Origin: a virus
DNA length: 40,240 nt
IMG/VR virus record: IMGVR_UViG_3300007734_000683
Span: 1-40,240 of that record
Direction: 5' to 3' (one strand)
Part shown: positions 5,041 to 31,440 of the stretch, piece after piece
How positions within the stretch are numbered: the first letter of the stretch is position 1
Layout of the letters: every line of letters begins with the position of its first letter
Translations under genes and position numbers: made by a program
The notes under the pieces: model-generated
Database searches by the model: none
The model's input: the letters and a program-made list of their open reading frames with translations, nothing else
Told to the model about the DNA's origin: nothing

Positions 5041-6915
5041 TTATTGTACTAACATTGAAGTAGTATTTAATGCTATCCCAAAGGTTACTGATAAGGTTGA
5101 ATTTTCAGTACTTGGAGTACCATTATCATCAATATAATAAATAGATCCTGCTGTAAGTCCTGTAAATGTTGTCTGTTTTACATACCTCATATTTATAAGT
5201 CCTGATACTGTATCTGCAATAGTATTGAAAGCTGTACCGATAAATTTATTTGAAGTACTACCAAGTGTAACAAATGAATATTCTGTTCCTGCGACACCTA
5301 GATATTTGAAAGGTTTAAACTTGCATACCCAAGTACTTTGGTAATTGTTACCCGCATTAGTAACATCTTGGGTTGTTGTTGAAGTAATAGTAGTACCATC
5401 AACAAAAAGTAAATGATATTTTGTATTTGTGTTTGTAGTTCTAGTCGCAGTCAGTAAAACTGATGCGCCTAAGGATAAAACATTTAAGTAAAATTTCACT
5501 TGGTTAAATCCTGTTCCTAATTGTAAATCAGTTCCTTTCGTGACTGTGCTTCCTGAAATAGTTAGAATTGCTGCTTGAACTTTATTGTCTGCTGCCCCAT
5601 CTGAATATGTATATACCATAGCAACTTTAGTTGAGCTAAGGACTGCCATAGTTCCGATTGTGTACTCGTAACTTGTTGAATTCAATGTGTTAGATCCGTT
5701 TACAGTAGGTGTAGTGCTAGAAACATCTATAGTTTTTGCTACAAGTGGGTCAGAAGAATCACCTGCAAATACACAAAGAAGTTTATCTGTTGTAAGTAAA
5801 CAGAGAGATGCTCGTGTTTGTACCCCAGAAGAATGTACCTGTACTGGAGTATTAGTGGTGATAGTAGTTCCTGAGATCGATAATATCTGAACCTTATAGT
5901 CAGTTCCATCGTAGTAAGTGACTGCTACACGACCTGAGTCTAATTTAGCACAACAAACAGAAGCAGTATCAATCATATCTGTATCTACTATGGCAATAGT
6001 GCCAGCTGTTATAGTGCCTCCTGATGCACCTACATCTAGCACTACAGCTAAACAGTCTGCGGTGACATTAGCTCTTTCATAAATAACTAAAAATTTATTT
6101 GTATCAAATTGACAAACATCATATGAATAAGAATTAGCTGTACTAAAATTATAGACACCCCCGTAAGTCATATCAGTCTCACCTGCGTTTATTGTTCCTA
6201 TGAAAGATTGAACTTCTTTTGATAAAGATATACTGCCTCCAGTTAAATGGAGAGTCCTTGTTGCATCTATTTTTAAAATTTTATAAAGAAAGTCTGGAGA
6301 GACATTATCAGGTTCTGTAAATGTTCCAGAACTAGATGCAAAAGATGTAGGACGTACTCTTTCAACAATATCATTGCCAGTTGGATACACAATATCTCCA
6401 CTTGTTAAATCTTCTCCAGCTGTGTAAGTATAGACTATATTTGAATCTTGAATTGTTCCATTATTTATAGTGACTGTATTAAAAGTAGCAGCTCCGGTCT
6501 TTAATACTTTAGCAACAGCACTTCCTAAGGTAGTAGCTCCCCACCATGTGTTTCCTTCAGTATCAACGTGGAATGAATTAGCGGTTATAGTATCAGGAAT
6601 ATCAAGACTATTAACATCTAAATTAGTAGCGGTAACATTTCCTTGCATATCGACTCTAAAAGGAGCACTTGCAAATTCTGCATGGCCTAAATGTATTCCA
6701 AGGGGGCTTACTTTAAAAATGTCATTTCCTGAACCAACAGTTGCTGTATTAGCACCTAATGAAAATGGTCCAGCTGTTTCTCCTAGTTCTGGGGATTTAG
6801 GTTGTACAAGTGTACCTGTAGGTGTTAATTCTGGAGAATTATTAGATACATCTTGAAGTCCTCCAGGGAGGACAGAAGAAGGGATTAGATTAAATTTTGG
6901 TGTTAAATCTTCCAT
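5041..6915 (-). CDS. Fibre/tail-surface-like virion protein
   Basis: A 624-residue protein whose ATG shares one base with the preceding stop (TAATG at 6915). After a Pro-rich N-terminus, residues about 85-125 carry two copies of a motif common in phage fibres and prophage adhesins: FRVDMQGNVTATNL and FHVDTEGNTWWG. The rest is beta-rich with many short Thr/Ser/Val strands, which suggests a beta-propeller or beta-sandwich surface domain. There are no catalytic signatures and no membrane segments. It lies between the probable nozzle and the peptidoglycan-binding virion protein, so a tail-attached or nozzle-cap component is likely. Receptor binding is possible but not shown. Confidence 0.55.
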   Translation of the reverse strand: MEDLTPKFNLIPSSVLPGGLQDVSNNSPELTPTGTLVQPKSPELGETAGPFSLGANTATVGSGNDIFKVSPLGIHLGHAEFASAPFRVDMQGNVTATNLDVNSLDIPDTITANSFHVDTEGNTWWGATTLGSAVAKVLKTGAATFNTVTINNGTIQDSNIVYTYTAGEDLTSGDIVYPTGNDIVERVRPTSFASSSGTFTEPDNVSPDFLYKILKIDATRTLHLTGGSISLSKEVQSFIGTINAGETDMTYGGVYNFSTANSYSYDVCQFDTNKFLVIYERANVTADCLAVVLDVGASGGTITAGTIAIVDTDMIDTASVCCAKLDSGRVAVTYYDGTDYKVQILSISGTTITTNTPVQVHSSGVQTRASLCLLTTDKLLCVFAGDSSDPLVAKTIDVSSTTPTVNGSNTLNSTSYEYTIGTMAVLSSTKVAMVYTYSDGAADNKVQAAILTISGSTVTKGTDLQLGTGFNQVKFYLNVLSLGASVLLTATRTTNTNTKYHLLFVDGTTITSTTTQDVTNAGNNYQSTWVCKFKPFKYLGVAGTEYSFVTLGSTSNKFIGTAFNTIADTVSGLINMRYVKQTTFTGLTAGSIYYIDDNGTPSTENSTLSVTFGIALNTTSMLVQ

Positions 6916-8363
6916 TATCCTTCAAGGTGATGACCTTGTATAATTATCTTTCTAATAGCACAATCGTTCGATGCTGATCCTGCACTCCAATCTAATGCTA
7001 TTCTAAAATCTTGTAATGAATTTGCTAGTCCAAAGTTATCAAAATAATGTCTTGTTTTTCCTGTTGTAGTGATAACCTTTGCTGTACTTGTGTCTACTGT
7101 TTGATTTCCTTCTATAGTAAGTGAACATGAAGCATTTGCTCCTAGTACTTTTGTATATACAGTTATACTATCTATTTCTGCTAGATTTAATCCTGAACTT
7201 ACAGGAAATATTATAGATTTCCAGCTACAAGCAGTGTCATACCCTGAAAATTTAGCAAGTCTAAAATTAGTACCTCCATCAGTACTAGATATTATTGGAG
7301 TTCCAAAGGGAGCAGCTATTGCTCCGACAGTTGCATATCCTCCATCTGCTATTTGGGATAACTGATAAGGTAGTTCTCCAATAGTTGCTCCTGCTGAGTA
7401 TATTAATCCACTAGATATAAATAATATTGTATTATTGTATAAAGTCTTTTGAGCAAATGTAGGTAATGCTCCGGTAAATCTTTTTAAAGGAGTAATAGTC
7501 TTTCCATTTATATATCCGATGATAAATCCTGTAGAACTTAGGTCCTGATAAGCAACATATATTATTCCATTAATACGATATAGAAATCCTATTCTTTGCA
7601 TACCAACTCCCGCTTCATCTGTAAGAGTATTTATTAAAGCTGCACCATCAAATAAATAGACTTGCCCTTCTGATCTATTTGTTCCAGTTATATTTGAATT
7701 GACTGCAAGATACCAGAACCCATTTGAGTATAAAACATCATCAACTTGTGTCCCTATACCAAAGTCTAATTTAGTTGGAGCTAAGGTAGTCCCGATATAA
7801 GTTCCAACGTATCTCCCATTACCAAAAACTATTATATCTTCTTTCTTATCACTTGGATGTGGAGCAAGTTGTAATGTAGCAAAACCAGTTGGAACGGTAG
7901 AACCCCAGTCATCATCAAAAGTTACGTTTAAATCATATTTTCCAATGTTACCTGCACTTGCTGTATTATAAAAATAATAAAGATTTCCTCCCATGACTTG
8001 AATACTTTCTCCTTCAGTACAAGAAGTTATTGCGTGTGGCCATGTACCATCACTTGTGACAGTAGTAGAACTAAGTTTAAATAATTTAGAAGTTCCAATA
8101 GCATAAGACACATCTGTCGCTACAGCCTTATCCATTATAAATTGAATCTGTTCTGTAACAGCACTTGCCTGCGTACCATTAGTTAGGTTAGATAAAGCTG
8201 GACCTTGAGTAAGGTATGTTCCATTAATAACATCAACATTCTGCATAACTCCCGCAGAACCTCCTCCACCTAATTCGGTAAGAGAGTTTGAAAAAGCTAA
8301 AGGAGAATATCCTGCATAAAATTTAGATAACTCTATTGTAAATGTATTATCTTTTTGAGCCAT
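6915..8363 (-). CDS. Probable tail nozzle / beta-propeller-like virion protein
   Basis: A 482-residue protein starting with ATG that overlaps the upstream stop by one base (TAATG at 8363). Near residue 30 is a Gly-rich segment (TELGGGGSAGVMQNVDV). Most of the protein is short beta strands separated by turns (for example VFGNGRYVGTYIG, LYSNGFWYLAVNSN), as in beta-propellers. In T7-type phages the gp11 adaptor gene is followed directly by the gp12 nozzle gene, which contains a propeller. The same order here (adaptor-like gene at 8363-9130, then this gene) is the main reason for the call. Sequence similarity to gp12 itself cannot be judged by eye. Confidence 0.5.
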   Translation of the reverse strand: MAQKDNTFTIELSKFYAGYSPLAFSNSLTELGGGGSAGVMQNVDVINGTYLTQGPALSNLTNGTQASAVTEQIQFIMDKAVATDVSYAIGTSKLFKLSSTTVTSDGTWPHAITSCTEGESIQVMGGNLYYFYNTASAGNIGKYDLNVTFDDDWGSTVPTGFATLQLAPHPSDKKEDIIVFGNGRYVGTYIGTTLAPTKLDFGIGTQVDDVLYSNGFWYLAVNSNITGTNRSEGQVYLFDGAALINTLTDEAGVGMQRIGFLYRINGIIYVAYQDLSSTGFIIGYINGKTITPLKRFTGALPTFAQKTLYNNTILFISSGLIYSAGATIGELPYQLSQIADGGYATVGAIAAPFGTPIISSTDGGTNFRLAKFSGYDTACSWKSIIFPVSSGLNLAEIDSITVYTKVLGANASCSLTIEGNQTVDTSTAKVITTTGKTRHYFDNFGLANSLQDFRIALDWSAGSASNDCAIRKIIIQGHHLEG

Positions 8364-9130
8364 TAGAAGGCAACTTTATCACTGTTACTTTGATAATTAC
8401 TTAATCCATCCCCACTTCCATAATCTTCTTTACGGAATTGAACTGAAACACTTTCATCCCTACTTCTCTGAGAATAGAATAGTTGTAAATCTTGTTCCAT
8501 TTTTTGGATTAGTGGCATTAATATATTTACTTTACCATTCATTCCTTTTGAAATTGCATAATCTAATGCAGCACCGAATGATAGGATTCTATGAAAAGGA
8601 GCAGCAAATCCGGGTACTTTTGTAGTATCAGAAACTAGGAAATATGAAGCATCTCTTTGAAAATATACTTTAAGCCCAGATGTTAATGTAACTTGTGATG
8701 AAGTAGGTTTAGGATATAAATTAATAAAACCTCCTACTTTTTCATAGTATTGAGGTCTCCCTGGAGTTTTAAGAAATTCTGTCATTGATTGATCAGTAAT
8801 CTCATGTTCATTTATGGGGAATATTTTATAAAAATTTCCATTAGTGTCCTTAACTTCAACACGATTTATTGTTAAGTAAGTAGTATCTGGGATAGCGACA
8901 ACAGTAGTTGATTCTGTCATTGTTAAAGAAGTAGTAGGTTGAGAAGCATTATTTGTGTCATCCCATTTCCACCTACCATCTGCCTGCAATATTAAAGAAA
9001 CAATCTCATCGTATTTTCTATTTATGTTTCTAGTCTTTTGAGCTATTGCATACGAAGTAGAATCAGTATTGATTATAAAATCAATATCTTCAACTATTCC
9101 GGTTTTACCTGTACTATCACTAAATATCAT
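8363..9130 (-). CDS. Head-tail adaptor (T7 gp11-like)
   Basis: A 255-residue protein. Residues about 120-150 read GRPQYYEKVGGFINLYPKP, which fits the pattern G-x-P-x-x-Y-x-x-x-G-x-x-I-x-L-x-P-x-P seen in podoviral tail-tube A / adaptor proteins that join portal to nozzle. The N-terminal half has helices with aromatic residues (DGRWKWDD). The C-terminal half is helical and contains LSFGAALDYAISKG, also usual for this fold. The next gene starts within its stop codon. This is the strongest sequence evidence that the virion is short-tailed. Assignment rests on motif and gene order, not on a computed alignment. Confidence 0.65.
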   Translation of the reverse strand: MIFSDSTGKTGIVEDIDFIINTDSTSYAIAQKTRNINRKYDEIVSLILQADGRWKWDDTNNASQPTTSLTMTESTTVVAIPDTTYLTINRVEVKDTNGNFYKIFPINEHEITDQSMTEFLKTPGRPQYYEKVGGFINLYPKPTSSQVTLTSGLKVYFQRDASYFLVSDTTKVPGFAAPFHRILSFGAALDYAISKGMNGKVNILMPLIQKMEQDLQLFYSQRSRDESVSVQFRKEDYGSGDGLSNYQSNSDKVAF

Positions 9131-9426: not shown

Positions 9427-9594
9427 CTATTTTTTAACTTTAATATTTTTACTCTTACCAGCGCTGGACAAAGCGATAGCAATTATTTGTTCTCGTGAAC
9501 GAGGTTTTCCTCCTGCTCCTTTTTCTTTACCAGATTTTTTATTATCTGCATATAACTCATGAATATTTTTTGAAACTGATTTTCCTAATGGCAT
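9427..9594 (-). CDS. Small basic PLGKS-type phage protein
   Basis: A 55-residue basic protein with ATG at 9594, starting MPLGKSVSKNIHELYADNK and followed by GKPRSREQIIAIALSSAGK. This N-terminal MPLGKS and central GKxRxQxIAIALS pattern is recurrent in very short phage proteins encoded near structural genes. Its role is unknown. The start lies one base after the stop of the 108-residue gene upstream (TAATATG). It was found by direct translation because it is short. Confidence 0.6.
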   Translation of the reverse strand: MPLGKSVSKNIHELYADNKKSGKEKGAGGKPRSREQIIAIALSSAGKSKNIKVKK

Positions 9595-19667: not shown

Positions 19668-19987
19668 TTTAGCCATTTTTTTACTATACTATACCTGCTA
19701 TACCTAGCCAAAGGTATAGTAAAAAGCATAGTAATTTTTTTTAACCTTTATTTTACCAGTATCAAAAAACGCATTCCTATACCTACTATACCTACTATAT
19801 ATAATATATATATATATATATAATACATAGCACACACACCCACACACCCACACGCACGCACGGAAGTGTTTAGCCATTTTTCAAAAAGGTATAGTAATTT
19901 TTTTTAAGCTATATACCACAAGCTAAAAATGCTACTATACCTCAAAAAAGGTATAGTAAAGAGGTATAGTAAAAATAGTTATCCACA
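19668..19987. other. Candidate replication origin with AGGTATAG iterons
   Basis: Nine exact copies of CTATACCT or its complement AGGTATAG lie at 19689, 19698, 19712, 19777, 19786, 19887, 19935, 19949 and 19962, in both orientations. Longer blocks also repeat: TTTAGCCATTTTT twice and ATAGTAATTTTTTTTAA twice. Between the two iteron groups are an AT-dinucleotide run (about 19795-19822) and a CA-rich run (about 19829-19860), good candidates for easily melted DNA. A perfect DnaA box ends the region. Iterons, melted region and DnaA box between divergent operons are the classic elements of an origin. The initiator protein is not identified; the HTH protein or the PrimPol-helicase are candidates. Confidence 0.65.
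19979..19987 (+). promoter_or_regulatory. Perfect DnaA box
   Basis: TTATCCACA, the consensus high-affinity DnaA site, ten bases after the last iteron copy. It suggests use of the host initiator for origin melting or helicase loading. Another perfect match on the other strand (13788-13796) has no origin context. Confidence 0.65.
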
Positions 19988-19995
19988 GTTTATAT

Positions 19996-20023
19996 TTTAC
20001 TTTACTTGATAATACTTTATAAT
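19996..20023 (+). promoter_or_regulatory. Candidate early promoter
   Basis: TTTACT (19996-20001), a 16-base spacer and a perfect TATAAT (20018-20023). The -10 box lies inside the left arm of the large hairpin at 20009-20072, so promoter use and structure may be linked. It faces the early genes, the first of which starts at 20246. The transcript would have a leader of about 215 bases. Confidence 0.45.
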
Positions 20024-20072
20024 AGAAGTATAGCAAATTAGTCCCTTGCTATAAACTATTATAAAGTATTAT
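20009..20072 (+). repeat. Long imperfect palindrome / 64-nt hairpin
   Basis: ATAATACTTTATAATAG (20009-20025) pairs perfectly with CTATTATAAAGTATTAT (20056-20072). Inside it, TATAGCAA (20029-20036) pairs with TTGCTATA (20046-20053), leaving a nine-base loop ATTAGTCCC. The stem is therefore 17 + 8 pairs with a small internal loop. A palindrome this long just after the iterons and DnaA box could be a cruciform, a lagging-strand (single-strand) origin, an operator over the early promoter, or the 5' structure of the early mRNA. Confidence 0.65.
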
Positions 20073-20245
20073 AAATTAAAGTAATTAAATCATATAACCA
20101 TAACATACTCAAATTTACTTAACGCATACATAGTTACAAAGCAAAAGTTATTAACAAAAAGAAGTAGCGAACCAGTCCGCTCAATGCTCGCAGTAGATAA
20201 AAATAGACTGGTAGCCATTAGCAAAGCATTAAAGAGAATATAACC
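20073..20245 (+). other. Non-coding leader before the early genes
   Basis: No convincing ORF. ACCAGTC (20171-20177) can pair with GACTGGT (20216-20222), and AATGCT inside that loop can pair with AGCATT further on, so the early mRNA leader may fold. With 19189-20008 this makes about 1 kb without a gene, holding the promoters, palindromes and origin-like repeats listed separately. Confidence 0.4.
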
Positions 20246-22314: not shown

Positions 22315-22413
22315 TGCACAAGAGATTATCACAAAAAATTTATTCGTATTTAGCAAGCAGTATATGTAAGAACTTCCTTAGGGATAATTCTTGTGCAACA
22401 TATACTGCTTTTT
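22315..22413 (+). promoter_or_regulatory. Terminator/antiterminator or pseudoknot leader of the primase gene
   Basis: Four segments occur in the order A-B-A'-B'. A (22315-22330, TGCACAAGAGATTATC) pairs with A' (22383-22397, GATAATTCTTGTGCA) over 15 pairs with one bulged G. B (22356-22367, AGCAGTATATGT) pairs perfectly with B' (22398-22409, ACATATACTGCT), which is followed by TTTT. B-B' is terminator-like; A-A' encloses B and blocks it. The two stems are either mutually exclusive (attenuation) or form an H-type pseudoknot. The primase ATG lies 16 bases after the T run. Confidence 0.65.
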
Positions 22414-22428
22414 GTATGGGAATAAACT

Positions 22429-24450
22429 ATGGAAAATAAAACAATGACAATAGAACAGCAGGCATTTGCTTACCATGTCAATGGTTATAATTTATTACCT
22501 ATTGGTAAAGATAAAAAACCTATAATAAATAGCTGGAAGAAATGGCAAACAGAACAACAGACAGATGAGCAAATTATAGCTTGGTTTAAAGATGGGGCAA
22601 ATATAGGAATTATAACAGGGGAGATCTCCAGGATAACTGTTATTGATATTGATACAAAAAATGGACAAGAAAATGTAGACAAGATGTTAGAGGTATTTCC
22701 TAAAACTTATACTGTCAGGACACCCTCAAAGGGTTATCATCTCTACTATCAGTATGCCCCCGGCTTTACAGTCAGTGCAAATGCTTACCCAGAATTTCCT
22801 AGTGTTGACATAAGGGGTGATCAAGGGTATGTCGTAGCGCCCCCATCTGTTCTCCCCACTGGTACCTATGAGGTAATAAATAATATGTCTCCAGTACCAT
22901 TCCCGGTACATTTATTCCCTAAAACAAAACCACGCAAGTCTATAACTGAAATGACTACTGCAAGCAAGGGCAATAGGGATGACAGCCTTACCTCTTTCGC
23001 TGGTAAATTATTACAATCAGAAAATGATGAAGGTAAATGGTATACCGAAGTACTGCCAGCTGTCGAAAGAGCAAATTTGACCTATAACCCTCCATTACCT
23101 AAAGAGGATGTAATGAAAGTATTTAATTCAATAGCGAAGAAAGAAAAACAGAGAAGGGAAGGATTGATTTTATCCCCTATCCAAATGGATGATGGGGAAA
23201 TTATATCTAATGTAAAAATACCACTAAGGAAAAATTCAGCTAATGTCCCATATAAAGATATGGCTAATGCTTTAATTGTACTGGAAAATCATCCCTATTA
23301 TAAAGGTACAATAAAATACAATGTATTCAGGCAAGAAATAGAATATAACGGTAAACCCCTAGAGGATGCTGACATTATAAAGATACAATACTTCATGCAG
23401 ACAGAAGTTGGGCTACAAGGAATAATGCAAGGGAATGTTTATTCCGCTATAGTACACTACGCACAGAAGAATAAGTATGATGAGGCAGTAGACTGGCTAA
23501 CTGGGTTAGTATGGGACGGTACTCCTAGAGTAGCTACATGGCTTTCAAAAGCCTTAGCACTACCAGAATCAACATACTTAAGCGGTATAGGGTCTCAATG
23601 GTTGCGTGGCATGGTGAGCCGTATAATGCGTCCTGGGGCACAATTTGACTATGTCTTAATGCTTGTCGGACCACAGAACCTCGGTAAGACATCTTTCTTT
23701 AGAATAATTGGTGGACAGTTTTATAAGAGCTACACTGGGGAAGTAGATAATAAGGACTTTTACTTAGCAGTTAGAGGGGCTATGCTTATGGATCTTGATG
23801 AGGGGGCAACACTTTATAACAGTCAGGCAATTAAGATTAAAAGTATAATCACTGAAGTATGTGATGAATACCGCGCACCCTATGACCGGATAATGAAGAA
23901 ATATCCTCGCAGGTTTGTATTTTCTATTTCCACAAATGATATGGAGCCGTTTAAAGATGTGACAGGTAACAGACGTTATTGGCCTATTGATATTAAAGAC
24001 CCTGTAGAGTTTAAATGGTTGGAAGAAAACAGAGATCAACTATTTGCTGAGACATATTATAACTATAAAAATAAGATAGACATTGCAGAAGTACCAATGG
24101 ATGAGGCAACAGAAATACAAGAAGCACACCTCCATGATGATTCTTGGACTGAATTAGTGGTTGATGAAGTAAGGAAATCAGCAGACTACTGCGAGGGTGA
24201 TCCTAACTATTCTACAACTATTATGGAAGTATTTAGTAATGTATTTAAAGATGAAAGTCTAATAAGATTAGATAAAAGACATGAGATGAGAATAGGTACT
24301 ATCTTTAGAAAACAATTAGGCCTTGAAAAAAAGCAAACAATGGTAGATGGTGAAAGAAAAAATCGTTATTATATTACAGAAAAGAAGTTAAAAGAACTAC
24401 AAGAGAAAAATATAAAACAAGTAAAAAGTAAATTAGATGAAGAATTCTAA
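22429..24450 (+). CDS. Primase-polymerase / VapE-like helicase replication protein
   Basis: A 673-residue two-domain replication protein. Residues about 1-150 are a bifunctional primase-polymerase (PrimPol) domain: the aspartates of VIDIDTKNG (about 72-79), then TPSKGYHLYY and a loop VDIRGDQGYVVAPPS. Residues about 350-600 are a virulence-associated E (VapE)-type ATPase: VDWLTGLVWDGTPRV, Walker A GPQNLGKTS (about 414-422), Walker B AMLMDLDEG (about 451-459), and SISTNDMEPFKDVTGNRRYW (about 502-521) as sensor/arginine-finger region. It should prime and unwind phage DNA. No separate DNA polymerase is encoded, so synthesis probably passes to the host replisome or relies on the PrimPol itself. 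Confidence 0.85.
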   Translation: MENKTMTIEQQAFAYHVNGYNLLPIGKDKKPIINSWKKWQTEQQTDEQIIAWFKDGANIGIITGEISRITVIDIDTKNGQENVDKMLEVFPKTYTVRTPSKGYHLYYQYAPGFTVSANAYPEFPSVDIRGDQGYVVAPPSVLPTGTYEVINNMSPVPFPVHLFPKTKPRKSITEMTTASKGNRDDSLTSFAGKLLQSENDEGKWYTEVLPAVERANLTYNPPLPKEDVMKVFNSIAKKEKQRREGLILSPIQMDDGEIISNVKIPLRKNSANVPYKDMANALIVLENHPYYKGTIKYNVFRQEIEYNGKPLEDADIIKIQYFMQTEVGLQGIMQGNVYSAIVHYAQKNKYDEAVDWLTGLVWDGTPRVATWLSKALALPESTYLSGIGSQWLRGMVSRIMRPGAQFDYVLMLVGPQNLGKTSFFRIIGGQFYKSYTGEVDNKDFYLAVRGAMLMDLDEGATLYNSQAIKIKSIITEVCDEYRAPYDRIMKKYPRRFVFSISTNDMEPFKDVTGNRRYWPIDIKDPVEFKWLEENRDQLFAETYYNYKNKIDIAEVPMDEATEIQEAHLHDDSWTELVVDEVRKSADYCEGDPNYSTTIMEVFSNVFKDESLIRLDKRHEMRIGTIFRKQLGLEKKQTMVDGERKNRYYITEKKLKELQEKNIKQVKSKLDEEF

Positions 24451-25974: not shown

Positions 25975-26003
25975 TTGACATCAATTTTCTTTATAATTAT
26001 AAT
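25975..26003 (+). promoter_or_regulatory. Perfect consensus sigma70 promoter
   Basis: TTGACA (25975-25980), exactly 17 bases, TATAAT (25998-26003). It lies just after the resolvase gene. The expected start seven bases on, near 26010, is the A of the ATG of a 29-residue zinc-ribbon ORF, so the transcript would be leaderless. It should boost expression of the ssDNA-binding protein and the genes behind it. Confidence 0.75.
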
Positions 26004-26009
26004 AAAGAA

Positions 26010-26099
26010 ATGAAATGTAAAAAATGTAAGCATGAATGGGTTCCAAGGATTAAAAATCCTAAGTGTTGTCCAAAGTGTAAGAATTATATCAAGTCATAA
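26010..26099 (+). CDS. 29-residue zinc-ribbon microprotein
   Basis: The ORF reads MKCKKCKHEWVPR then IKNPKCCPKCKNYIKS. Two CxxC pairs with a HEWxPR loop between them form a textbook zinc ribbon, frequently seen in very small phage, archaeal and CPR proteins. It is placed directly at the start point of a perfect promoter. Probably a nucleic-acid or RNA-polymerase-binding factor, but this is inference. Confidence 0.65.
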   Translation: MKCKKCKHEWVPRIKNPKCCPKCKNYIKS

Positions 26100-26550: not shown

Positions 26551-27018
26551 ATGAAAAAGATTAAACTAACTCAAGGTCAATATTGTTTATTAGATGATAT
26601 TGACTTTGAATGGTTTAATCAATGGAAATGGTATGCAAAAAAGCAAGGTATTAAATGGAAAGTTGCTAGAAATATAACTAATAAAATTGGTAAGCAAGAT
26701 ACAGTTTTATTACATAGAATTTTGATGAATTGTCCTTCAGGGAAAGAAGTAGATCATATTGATGGAAATCCATTAAATAATCAGAGAAAAAATCTAAGAC
26801 TTTGTACCAAAAAAGAAAATAGACAGAATAAAGGAATGTCTAAAAATAATAAATCAGGGTATAAAGGAGTTACATTACGTAGAAATGTATATGAAGTATA
26901 TATTAGAAAGAATAATAAACATTTATATATAGGTTCTTCAAAAGATAAACAAGAAGCATCGCGAATGTATAACAAAGTAGCAAAAGAAGTATTTGGTGAA
27001 TTTGCTAAGCTTGATTAA
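26551..27018 (+). CDS. HNH homing endonuclease with AP2 domain
   Basis: A 155-residue protein. Residues about 50-75 hold the HNH core (LHRILMNCPSGKEVDHIDGN, then PLNNQRKNLRLCT). Residues about 95-140 are an AP2-type DNA-binding domain (KSGYKGVTLRRNVYEVYIR, then KHLYIGSSKDKQEASRMYN). HNH-AP2 proteins are free-standing homing endonucleases. It sits three bases after the ssDNA-binding gene and is followed directly by a structured RNA-like element, suggesting insertion into the replication operon. Confidence 0.85.
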   Translation: MKKIKLTQGQYCLLDDIDFEWFNQWKWYAKKQGIKWKVARNITNKIGKQDTVLLHRILMNCPSGKEVDHIDGNPLNNQRKNLRLCTKKENRQNKGMSKNNKSGYKGVTLRRNVYEVYIRKNNKHLYIGSSKDKQEASRMYNKVAKEVFGEFAKLD

Positions 27019-27026
27019 CAATTAAC

Positions 27027-27106
27027 ATACAAGGGATTCTCCCTTGTATCCTGGAGGTTGACCCCTGAGTCTGCGGACAGTCAGGTAAGCGCATCTCCAG
27101 GATGTA
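27027..27106 (+). ncRNA. Structured RNA element with UNCG tetraloop
   Basis: Hairpin 1: ATACAAGGGA (27027-27036), loop TTC, TCCCTTGTAT (27040-27049). Stem 2: ATCCTGGAG (27048-27056) with CTCCAGGAT (27095-27103), both perfect apart from two bases shared with hairpin 1. Inside stem 2 a third stem, CCTGA+GTC (27064-27071) with GAC+TCAGG (27076-27085), has a two-base bulge and loop TGCG, a UNCG-type stable tetraloop closed by C-G. Large unpaired strands (27057-27063 and 27086-27094) remain, as in aptamers and ribozymes. The stretch is much richer in G and C than its flanks. I do not recognise a known class. Confidence 0.55.
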
Positions 27107-27123
27107 GGGGGGAATAATAAATT

Positions 27124-27270
27124 ATGAAAGAACTTATAAATCCAACAGCAGTAGTGTGTACTTGTTTCATGCTAATTATCATGTTGTTTAGAGGAATACA
27201 AACATTCCCAACTAATGCAATAATTTTATTAATAATATTTGTATTTGCTTGGATATGGAGTGAAAATTAA
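27124..27270 (+). CDS. Small two-span membrane protein
   Basis: A 48-residue ORF with two hydrophobic stretches (AVVCTCFMLIIMLF and AIILLIIFVFAWIW), starting 18 bases after the structured element and ending one base before the nuclease gene (TAATATG). Early small membrane proteins can act in superinfection exclusion or membrane-linked replication; nothing decides here. Confidence 0.5.
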   Translation: MKELINPTAVVCTCFMLIIMLFRGIQTFPTNAIILLIIFVFAWIWSEN

Positions 27271-29588: not shown

Positions 29589-29942
29589 ATGATAGAAATA
29601 AAATTTAGAGCGTGGGACAAATTAAATAAAGAAATGACCTTATTTGGATTGTTCGAGAGACCTACTGCTACTTGGGGGAAACATTGTGAAATAATGCAAT
29701 TCACTGGTCTCCTAGACAAAAACGGCAAAGAGATATATGAGGGGGATATAGTTGAATGGAAATATTTAAAAACTTGGCACAAAAACGAAGTTAGGTGGGT
29801 TGGGGGTGGATTTGTGGTAACCACATCTGGTTTTAAAGATGACTTAAATGAACCTCAAGATTTATCGCTTGTGTCAATATTAAGTTGTGAAATCATCGGC
29901 AACATTTACGAGAACCCAGATTTATTAACCCAGAAACCATAA
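29589..29942 (+). CDS. YopX family protein
   Basis: A 117-residue protein with the YopX signatures: start MIEIKFRAWDKLNKEM, then IMQFTGLLDKNGKEIYEGDI followed by beta strands, and end EIIGNIYENPDLL. YopX proteins occur widely on phages and form beta-rich oligomers of unknown function. It is preceded by repeat R1 and its stop lies inside repeat R2; a second R1-R2 pair without the gene lies at 30809-30899. Confidence 0.85.
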   Translation: MIEIKFRAWDKLNKEMTLFGLFERPTATWGKHCEIMQFTGLLDKNGKEIYEGDIVEWKYLKTWHKNEVRWVGGGFVVTTSGFKDDLNEPQDLSLVSILSCEIIGNIYENPDLLTQKP

Positions 29943-29976
29943 AAGGTTTCCTAACAAACAAAAGATAGATGAAAAA
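29931..29976 (+). repeat. Repeat R2, copy 1
   Basis: 46 bases covering the last codons of the yopX gene, the intergenic leader and the first codons of the methyltransferase-like gene. They recur at 30854-30899 with one mismatch. In copy 2 the first part is no longer coding. Confidence 0.85.
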
Positions 29977-30591: not shown

Positions 30592-30618
30592 TTATCCCCT
30601 TAACAGGGCATAGCCCTA
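30592..30618 (+). repeat. Leader repeat R3, copy 1
   Basis: 27 bases identical to 31154-31180, with similarity continuing for about seven more bases. It contains the small hairpin GGGC-ATA-GCCC. It lies in the leader of the 57-residue gene. A shortened form (AGCCCTAGAAA) precedes the gene at 31466. Confidence 0.8.
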
Positions 30619-30626
30619 GAAATAAA

Positions 30627-30800
30627 ATGAAAGAAGAAAAATACTATGTAGGGCAGACTATACAAAGTGGTGATGGTACAGAATATGTAGTGTCTGCTAT
30701 TTGGGAACAAAAACCACAATGGGCGGATTTAGAGCTAAGGAACAAAGAAACTGGTGAAGAAGGAAGTCTAAGAGTAGGAATAGATAAAATTAGAAGGTAA
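30627..30800 (+). CDS. Hypothetical small beta-rich protein
   Basis: A 57-residue protein from ATG 30627, which follows repeat R3; an upstream ATG would run through the end of the methyltransferase gene. The pattern YYVGQTIQSGDGTEYVVSAI, then WADLELRNKETGEEGSLRV, suggests a small SH3- or KOW-like beta barrel. Function unknown. Confidence 0.55.
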   Translation: MKEEKYYVGQTIQSGDGTEYVVSAIWEQKPQWADLELRNKETGEEGSLRVGIDKIRR

Positions 30801-30845: not shown

Positions 30846-30853
30846 GTACTAAT

Positions 30854-30899
30854 CCAGAAACTATAAAAGGTTTCCTAACAAACAAAAGATAGATGAAAA
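30854..30899 (+). repeat. Repeat R2, copy 2
   Basis: Second copy of R2 (45 of 46 bases identical). The part that encodes the YopX C-terminus in copy 1 is non-coding here. The end of the repeat supplies the leader and first codons of the 30893 gene. Confidence 0.85.
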
Positions 30900-31165
30900 G
30901 ATTTCAAATAAATGGTAAATACGAATATTGTCCTAATGGAAATTATTGGACAGATATATCTGGTATCTTTGATAAAGAATTGTATTTATTCTGCGACTGT
31001 AATAAATGTAATGGGCAGGTTTATAAACTAAAACCGTTCAATATAACAAAAAAGATAAAAAAAGAACAGATAGATAGATTTAGAAAATTGGATAAACTTG
31101 AAGAAATTAGAAATAAAATCACGTTAGAAAATATGCAAAAAGTAAAAGATTTATTATCCCCTTAA
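30893..31165 (+). CDS. Hypothetical protein with CDCNKC motif
   Basis: A 90-residue protein: beta start (FQINGKYEYCPNGNYW), a Cys cluster FCDCNKCNGQVYKL around residues 34-45, and a basic C-terminal helix. The Cys may bind metal. Its leader and first codons come from repeat R2. Function unknown. Confidence 0.5.
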   Translation: MKRFQINGKYEYCPNGNYWTDISGIFDKELYLFCDCNKCNGQVYKLKPFNITKKIKKEQIDRFRKLDKLEEIRNKITLENMQKVKDLLSP

Positions 31166-31180
31166 CAGGGCATAGCCCTA
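31154..31180 (+). repeat. Leader repeat R3, copy 2
   Basis: Exact 27-base copy of 30592-30618, overlapping the stop of the 30893 gene and forming the leader of the 31189 gene, with the GGGC-ATA-GCCC stem. Confidence 0.8.
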
Positions 31181-31188
31181 AAAATAAT

Positions 31189-31440
31189 ATGCCACCATTA
31201 AATATGAGTTTTGAAAATCAATTTTATCCCTGTGAATGTTGTAAACCTAGATATTGCACAGCAACAGTAACTAACGGGAGAAAATGGACAAAAAAAGAAA
31301 TAGAACAAGAGATAATTTACTACGCCACAGAACTGTCTAATAAGAAGTGGTACGAAGACAAAAGCTACACAAAAAACAGACTAAAACACTGGACAGAAAA
31401 GTTAGATAGATACAACGAGGCTAAAGAAAGTTTTAATTAA
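31189..31440 (+). CDS. Hypothetical protein with N-terminal Cys cluster
   Basis: An 83-residue protein. CECCKPRYC near residues 15-23 could bind a metal ion. The remainder is helical and charged (TKKEIEQEIIYYATELSNK, LKHWTEKLDRYNEAKE). It follows repeat R3. No family recognised. Confidence 0.5.
   Translation: MPPLNMSFENQFYPCECCKPRYCTATVTNGRKWTKKEIEQEIIYYATELSNKKWYEDKSYTKNRLKHWTEKLDRYNEAKESFN

Follow-up and report, generated by a model that had tools for sequence, protein, structure and literature searches.

A stable intercistronic RNA hairpin with two competing folds behind a homing endonuclease gene of an uncultured phage

Between an HNH homing endonuclease gene and a small predicted open reading frame (ORF), the genome of an uncultured phage carries a plus-strand RNA hairpin with two mutually exclusive folds; this hairpin most likely serves the downstream gene as a leader or processing element. 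Computation established both folds, the fact that they exclude each other, the bias towards the plus strand and the position; an effect on translation and actual use of the switch are presumed. Of the specific readings, a cis-acting intercistronic leader hairpin of the gene starting at 27124, in a plus-strand operon of early type, is tentatively preferred, at little short of an even call. This reading fits because of the position of the element, its plus-strand bias and the closeness of its 3' strand to the start codon. The element is unclassified and has no known relative; leader hairpins as such are already known.

The element adds a strongly supported, unclassified RNA to uncultured phages that show no SD signal and often have structured leaders. 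Should both folds be in use, the element would be a compact translational switch of a phage, and a case in which to test how translation can be set by structure independently of SD pairing. Otherwise, this isolated sequence without relatives would be an ordinary phage leader hairpin.

Genomic context

The window, i.e., the whole stretch of DNA that was analysed, is a record of 40,240 bases from an uncultured phage. A plus-strand operon spans the region of the element and, according to a Pfam search, encodes a VapE-type primase, a helicase, an HNH endonuclease and a PD-(D/E)XK exonuclease. The following features, all on the plus strand, can be differentiated:

25975..26003, +, perfect match to a sigma-70 promoter (TTGACA-17-TATAAT), about 1 kb upstream, which would transcribe the element
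26551..27018, +, gene of a free-standing homing endonuclease of HNH-AP2 type, 155 aa (Pfam HNH_3, 1.7e-11; phrog_99, 9.7e-35)
27027..27036, +, strand A, 5' arm of a 10-bp hairpin (folding)
27036..27049, +, strand B, partner of A (through 27040-27049) or of C (through 27036-27047) (folding)
27048..27103, +, central part, i.e., 9-bp stem, weak continuation, internal loop and inner stem (27064-27085), identical in both folds
27104..27115, +, strand C, 3' side of the outer helix with GGGGGG (27107-27112), pairing probability about 1.0 in the full-length fold
27116..27123, +, A/U-rich spacer of 8 nt from the hairpin base to the ATG (sequence)
27124..27270, +, predicted ORF of 48 aa that contains two hydrophobic stretches (MKELINPTAVV...FAWIWSEN), the putative controlled gene

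As an earlier note on this DNA had stated, the element occupies the gap between the HNH endonuclease gene (stop at 27016-27018) and a small hydrophobic ORF (ATG at 27124). The gap measures 105 bases, the element lies wholly outside both ORFs and it begins 8 nt after the end of the HNH-AP2 gene. The 48-aa ORF has no family match in Pfam, in PHROG or by tblastn against phages.

Perfect sigma-70 promoters occur twice in the window, at 25975 (+) and 19188 (-), against 0.06 expected. Immediately behind the former, at 26010-26099, there is a cysteine-rich mini-ORF of 29 aa (MKCKKCKHEWVPRIKNPKCCPKCKNYIKS). Between the divergent operons, at 19680-20085, repeated ACTATACC/GGTATAGT units are accompanied by a 29-nt inverted repeat, and this intergenic region is a possible replication origin. 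An intrinsic terminator was rejected as an identity for the element: the hairpin is followed by AAUAAAUUAUG with no U run, and a scan for such terminators finds none on the plus strand.

Structure and strand of the element

All the parts that the earlier note had named at 27027-27106 are present: (i) a 10-bp hairpin (27027-27036/27040-27049, UUC loop, -12.3 kcal/mol); (ii) a 9-bp stem (27048-27056/27095-27103); and (iii) an 8-bp inner stem (27064-27071/27076-27085) with an AG bulge and a C(UGCG)G loop. The UNCG loop is not unique, since the inner stem can also pair as CUG(CGGA)CAG at a cost of only 0.3 kcal/mol. The GC-richness relative to the flanks was likewise found (0.54 at 27040-27119 against 0.20-0.30 in the surroundings). 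What that description missed is the true extent of the structure, which reaches 27115, together with the outer helix and the link to the next start codon. When the entire gap is folded, the structure of minimum energy contains an unbroken 21-bp helix between 27036-27056 and 27095-27115; this helix extends weakly (27057-27060/27090-27094) and is followed by an internal loop (ACC/UAAG) and the inner 8-bp stem.

The 80 nt from 27036 to 27115 fold at -42.8 kcal/mol (z -4.9) and none of 1000 dinucleotide shuffles was as stable; the same holds for 27027-27106 (z -4.3, 0/1000). The element is the most stable 80-nt fold in the whole window. The compactness and GC-richness of the fold, together with its UNCG-type loop, might suggest a self-cleaving ribozyme, a function also proposed in the earlier note. 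Against it, the structure is a near-continuous duplex lacking a multi-helix or pseudoknotted core, and no Rfam ribozyme was matched at E values up to 10; the proposal thus found no support and is scarcely credible.

The mismatches of the 21-bp helix reveal the strand on which the element acts. Compared as DNA, the arms of 21 nt each show 81% complementarity, with four mismatches, all of which are U.G pairs on the plus strand and A.C on the minus strand. Since about 1/6 of random mismatches are expected to be of the U.G type, four out of four would arise by chance roughly once in a thousand cases (by the analysis' own estimate). The evidence therefore points to a plus-strand RNA hairpin, in the sense of the operon. 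The minus strand folds at -30.9 kcal/mol versus -42.8 kcal/mol for the plus strand, i.e., 12 kcal/mol worse.

These results bear on the reading in which the sequence works at the DNA level (as an origin, a packaging signal or a protein-binding inverted repeat) or its structure is due to chance. The 10-bp hairpin is perfect as DNA, and the element comes from a single 40 kb window scanned by eye, both of which would suit such a reading. But the imperfect outer repeat, whose every mismatch is tolerated in plus-strand RNA, and the failure of all 1000 shuffles to reach equal stability make it distinctly improbable.

Two mutually exclusive folds

The 10-bp hairpin (A:B) and the 12-bp extension of the outer helix (B:C, 27036-27047 with 27104-27115) compete for strand B. 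When the upstream flank was shuffled 4000 times, four of the shuffles gave strand B a hairpin partner of 10 bp or more. When the transcript is lengthened stepwise, A:B belongs to the minimum-energy fold up to 27109 and B:C from 27112 on, in a calculation that describes equilibrium at each length, not kinetics. For the energies, the fold with A:B enforced reaches -36.2 kcal/mol and the unconstrained one -44.9 kcal/mol. In the B:C fold, the GGGGGG run (27107-27112) is fully paired and lies 11 nt before the ATG, the base of the helix being 8 nt before it.

In the preferred reading, a leader hairpin of the gene at 27124, the nascent message would form A:B first, with strand C free until it is made, and A:B would then be displaced once 27110-27112 have been transcribed. 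In the full-length message, the 21-bp helix would form, hide the G6 run and position a rigid hairpin so that 8 nt separate it from the AUG, which would lower or time the translation of the gene. The outcome would be set by the speed of transcription, by a bound ribosome or protein, or by cleavage of a strand.

Since two exclusive folds can form, a riboswitch or a protein-responsive switch must also be considered. The stem, internal loop and inner hairpin would here act as the sensor for a ligand or for a protein of the phage, with A:B versus B:C as the expression platform. Such an element is predicted to have exclusive folds that alter access to an expression signal, and this was found here as a prediction only: a sensor-like stem common to both folds, two exclusive partners and a strand C next to the start codon amount to the layout of a translational switch. 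Furthermore, the gp32 and gp43 operators of T4 show that phage proteins can use leaders of this kind (PMC3014915). Nevertheless, widespread riboswitch classes normally occur in many genomes, and here neither an Rfam match nor a second copy in seven related records or the phage collection was found; moreover, pairing nearly closes the inner loop, leaving ACC/UAAG. A riboswitch or protein-binding operator is hence considered improbable. The same low weight is given to the more specific proposal of a three-strand RNA switch, in which a sensing stem-loop and a ligand or phage protein would select between the anti-sequestering hairpin and the 21-bp helix and thereby control a small phage membrane protein via a rare SD-like site, in a phage whose translation otherwise begins independently of SD sequences.

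Leader or processing element

Any effect of the element may come from structure close to the start codon or from processing of the RNase III type, and an intercistronic processing or stability element is given substantial weight, even if by itself it is rather unlikely. According to this alternative, a long duplex would be cut by RNase III, parting or protecting the HNH and downstream messages, with no regulated switch. Lying between cistrons, a duplex of 21-25 bp (27036-27060/27090-27115) that has an internal loop and is topped by an 8-bp stem fits in size and place, corresponding to the duplex of about two turns that characterizes RNase III sites. Moreover, this phage and its relatives have other long intergenic hairpins. 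But this alternative leaves unexplained both the perfect competing 10-bp A:B hairpin, with its rarity among shuffled flanks, and the fact that the 3' end of the helix falls 8 nt before the ATG.

The leader reading itself has to face two observations. No sigma-70-like plus-strand promoter was found by a scan in or just before the hairpin, unlike the late-promoter arrangement of T4, in which an alternative promoter in the 5' arm yields mRNA free of the hairpin, and the start codon at 27124 is weakly paired; both argue against a leader. In its favour, the 3' strand of the hairpin holds the start-proximal site, 27107-27112 being paired with a probability of about 1.0, as in leaders of T4 type.

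The GGGGGG run is the best anti-SD match among the 49 starts of the window that were tested (-9.9 kcal/mol). SD use is not general, however, the mean upstream of the 49 starts being -1.70 kcal/mol against -1.78 kcal/mol at random places. Burial of the G6 run may therefore be of no consequence, and the run may serve pairing alone. Structure near the starts appears to matter in the phage and related records, because (i) among 99 starts preceded by a gap of 25 nt or more, 27% have leaders with z < -2; and (ii) the bases from -10 to -2 are less paired than in shuffles (0.32-0.44 versus 0.49-0.50). An A occupies position -6 in 70% of 99 starts. Bacteroidia use SD-less, A-rich starts with reduced pairing near the start, and the starts of this phage resemble these (PMC9976891, PMC8710568). 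Nonetheless, a Bacteroidota host was not adopted, since Bacteroidota-type promoters are at chance level (2 found versus 2.2 expected) while perfect sigma-70 promoters are enriched.

Other structured leaders in the phage and its relatives

Further stable structures, unrelated in sequence to the element, occur near starts in this phage and in related records. The leader of the primase gene (window 22315-22410, ATG at 22429; related record L013, 12980-13055) contains an upstream strand (UGCACAAGA) whose complement lies in the loop of a hairpin with a U run at its end, the layout of a pseudoknot or an attenuator. A comparison of the window with L013, limited to these two sequences, shows 21 of 21 pairs conserved, with compensation in each of the four that vary, and 27 of 500 shuffles scored as high; Rfam gives no convincing match for this leader. 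The same layout is found, with unrelated sequence, at 9462-9545 of record L011. It also occurs at 7703-7804 of L014, another phage record, where a perfect sigma-70 promoter is immediately followed by AACUUAC, a hairpin with a GUAAGUU loop, a U run and the ATG. A general scan for upstream strands that pair with hairpin loops was too permissive in AT-rich DNA and was not used as statistics.

In addition, the helicase ATG of a related phage (L009) is immediately preceded by a GC-rich structure of 120 nt (5862-5982; z -4.3). The window contains two leader modules in duplicate (29923-29975 and 30847-30899; 30592-30629 and 31154-31191), each comprising a small hairpin (GAAACC/GGUUUC, AGGGC/GCCCU), an A-rich stretch and the ATG; in the first module, a C to U change in one copy gives a G.U pair. 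Finally, L009 contains at 8362-8487 tRNA-like ends (GGGGAAG ... GUUCGAAUCC ... CUUCCCC) around an over-long middle, in which no tRNA is recognized by ARAGORN or by Rfam. The stable structures before gene starts suggest selection for structured leaders in this group of phages, but they say nothing direct about the element at 27027.

Searches for relatives of the element

A search of the whole window with Rfam at the gathering threshold gave no match and, at E values up to 10, the region 26900-27250 gave chance matches only; the earlier description of the element as an unknown structured RNA thus holds. No tRNA was found either. Exact and gapped core patterns retrieved from IMG/VR either nothing or a single match, by coincidence, within the coding sequence of a tail protein (L008), and blastn against phages and plasmids returned chance matches (E about 1 or worse). 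A covariance model, weak in that it was built from one sequence, found only the element itself in 200 kb of related loci. Relatives of the phage were reached through the exonuclease, primase, terminase and helicase (terminase 47-79% identical, helicase 57%); these are fragments (L002-L009), and none of them spans the homologous gap.

The homing endonuclease gene

The short distance from the HNH stop to the element would also suit a part of the homing endonuclease unit, either a co-mobile RNA or an insertion mark, as the earlier note had suggested, and hairpins do control some phage homing endonucleases (PMC2988022). The known hairpins of this type, however, act at the start of their own gene, not behind its stop. 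Furthermore, the next same-strand gene lies at most 20 nt from the stop in 8 of 12 phage-encoded HNH-AP2 relatives, and the 3' flanks of 11 of the 12 are unremarkable (z -1.2 to +1.1), the exception being Pam5 (-3.2). Since 12 relatives were checked and 11 have no structured flank, the RNA does not generally travel with the HNH-AP2 family; the suggestion is contradicted by these relatives and is very improbable.

A separate hairpin is found within the gene itself. At 26559-26620, in the first 24 HNH codons, the window contains a 28-bp hairpin with five U.G pairs (z -6.2 to -8), which folds at -26.7 on the plus strand against -17.4 on the other strand; in Escherichia phage Mimir124, a distant HNH relative, the same gene region has z -4. 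This hairpin possibly restrains translation of the endonuclease and, compared with the element at 27027, would be the better fit to the known pattern of homing endonucleases restrained by a hairpin.

Comparison with known systems

The early mRNA of phage T7 contains RNase III sites, which are long intercistronic hairpins with an internal loop located just before a gene start. The element is similar to them in hairpin and place; here, cleavage is putative.

The gp32 and gp43 operators of T4 are likewise structured leaders upstream of a phage gene start (PMC3014915). The gp32 operator is a pseudoknot and, as such, is nearer to the primase leader of this phage; binding of a protein to the element at 27027 is hypothetical. 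The seg43 gene of Aeromonas phage 25 has a very stable hairpin directly upstream of its start (PMC2988022), as the element does; but while the ribosome-binding site of seg43 lies outside the stem, the G6 run lies inside it here.

Hairpins of T4 type are found at the starts of e, soc, I-TevI, segB and mobE of Aeh1 (PMC3014915, PMC2988022). The element differs from them in that (i) it sits after a homing endonuclease gene and before another gene; (ii) it has a second, competing hairpin; (iii) it belongs to a phage in which SD use is not general; and (iv) a scan for sigma-70-like promoters found none in its 5' arm. What it shares with them is a stable hairpin over or beside a phage start, whose 3' strand carries an SD-like sequence, in an intercistronic or intragenic leader.
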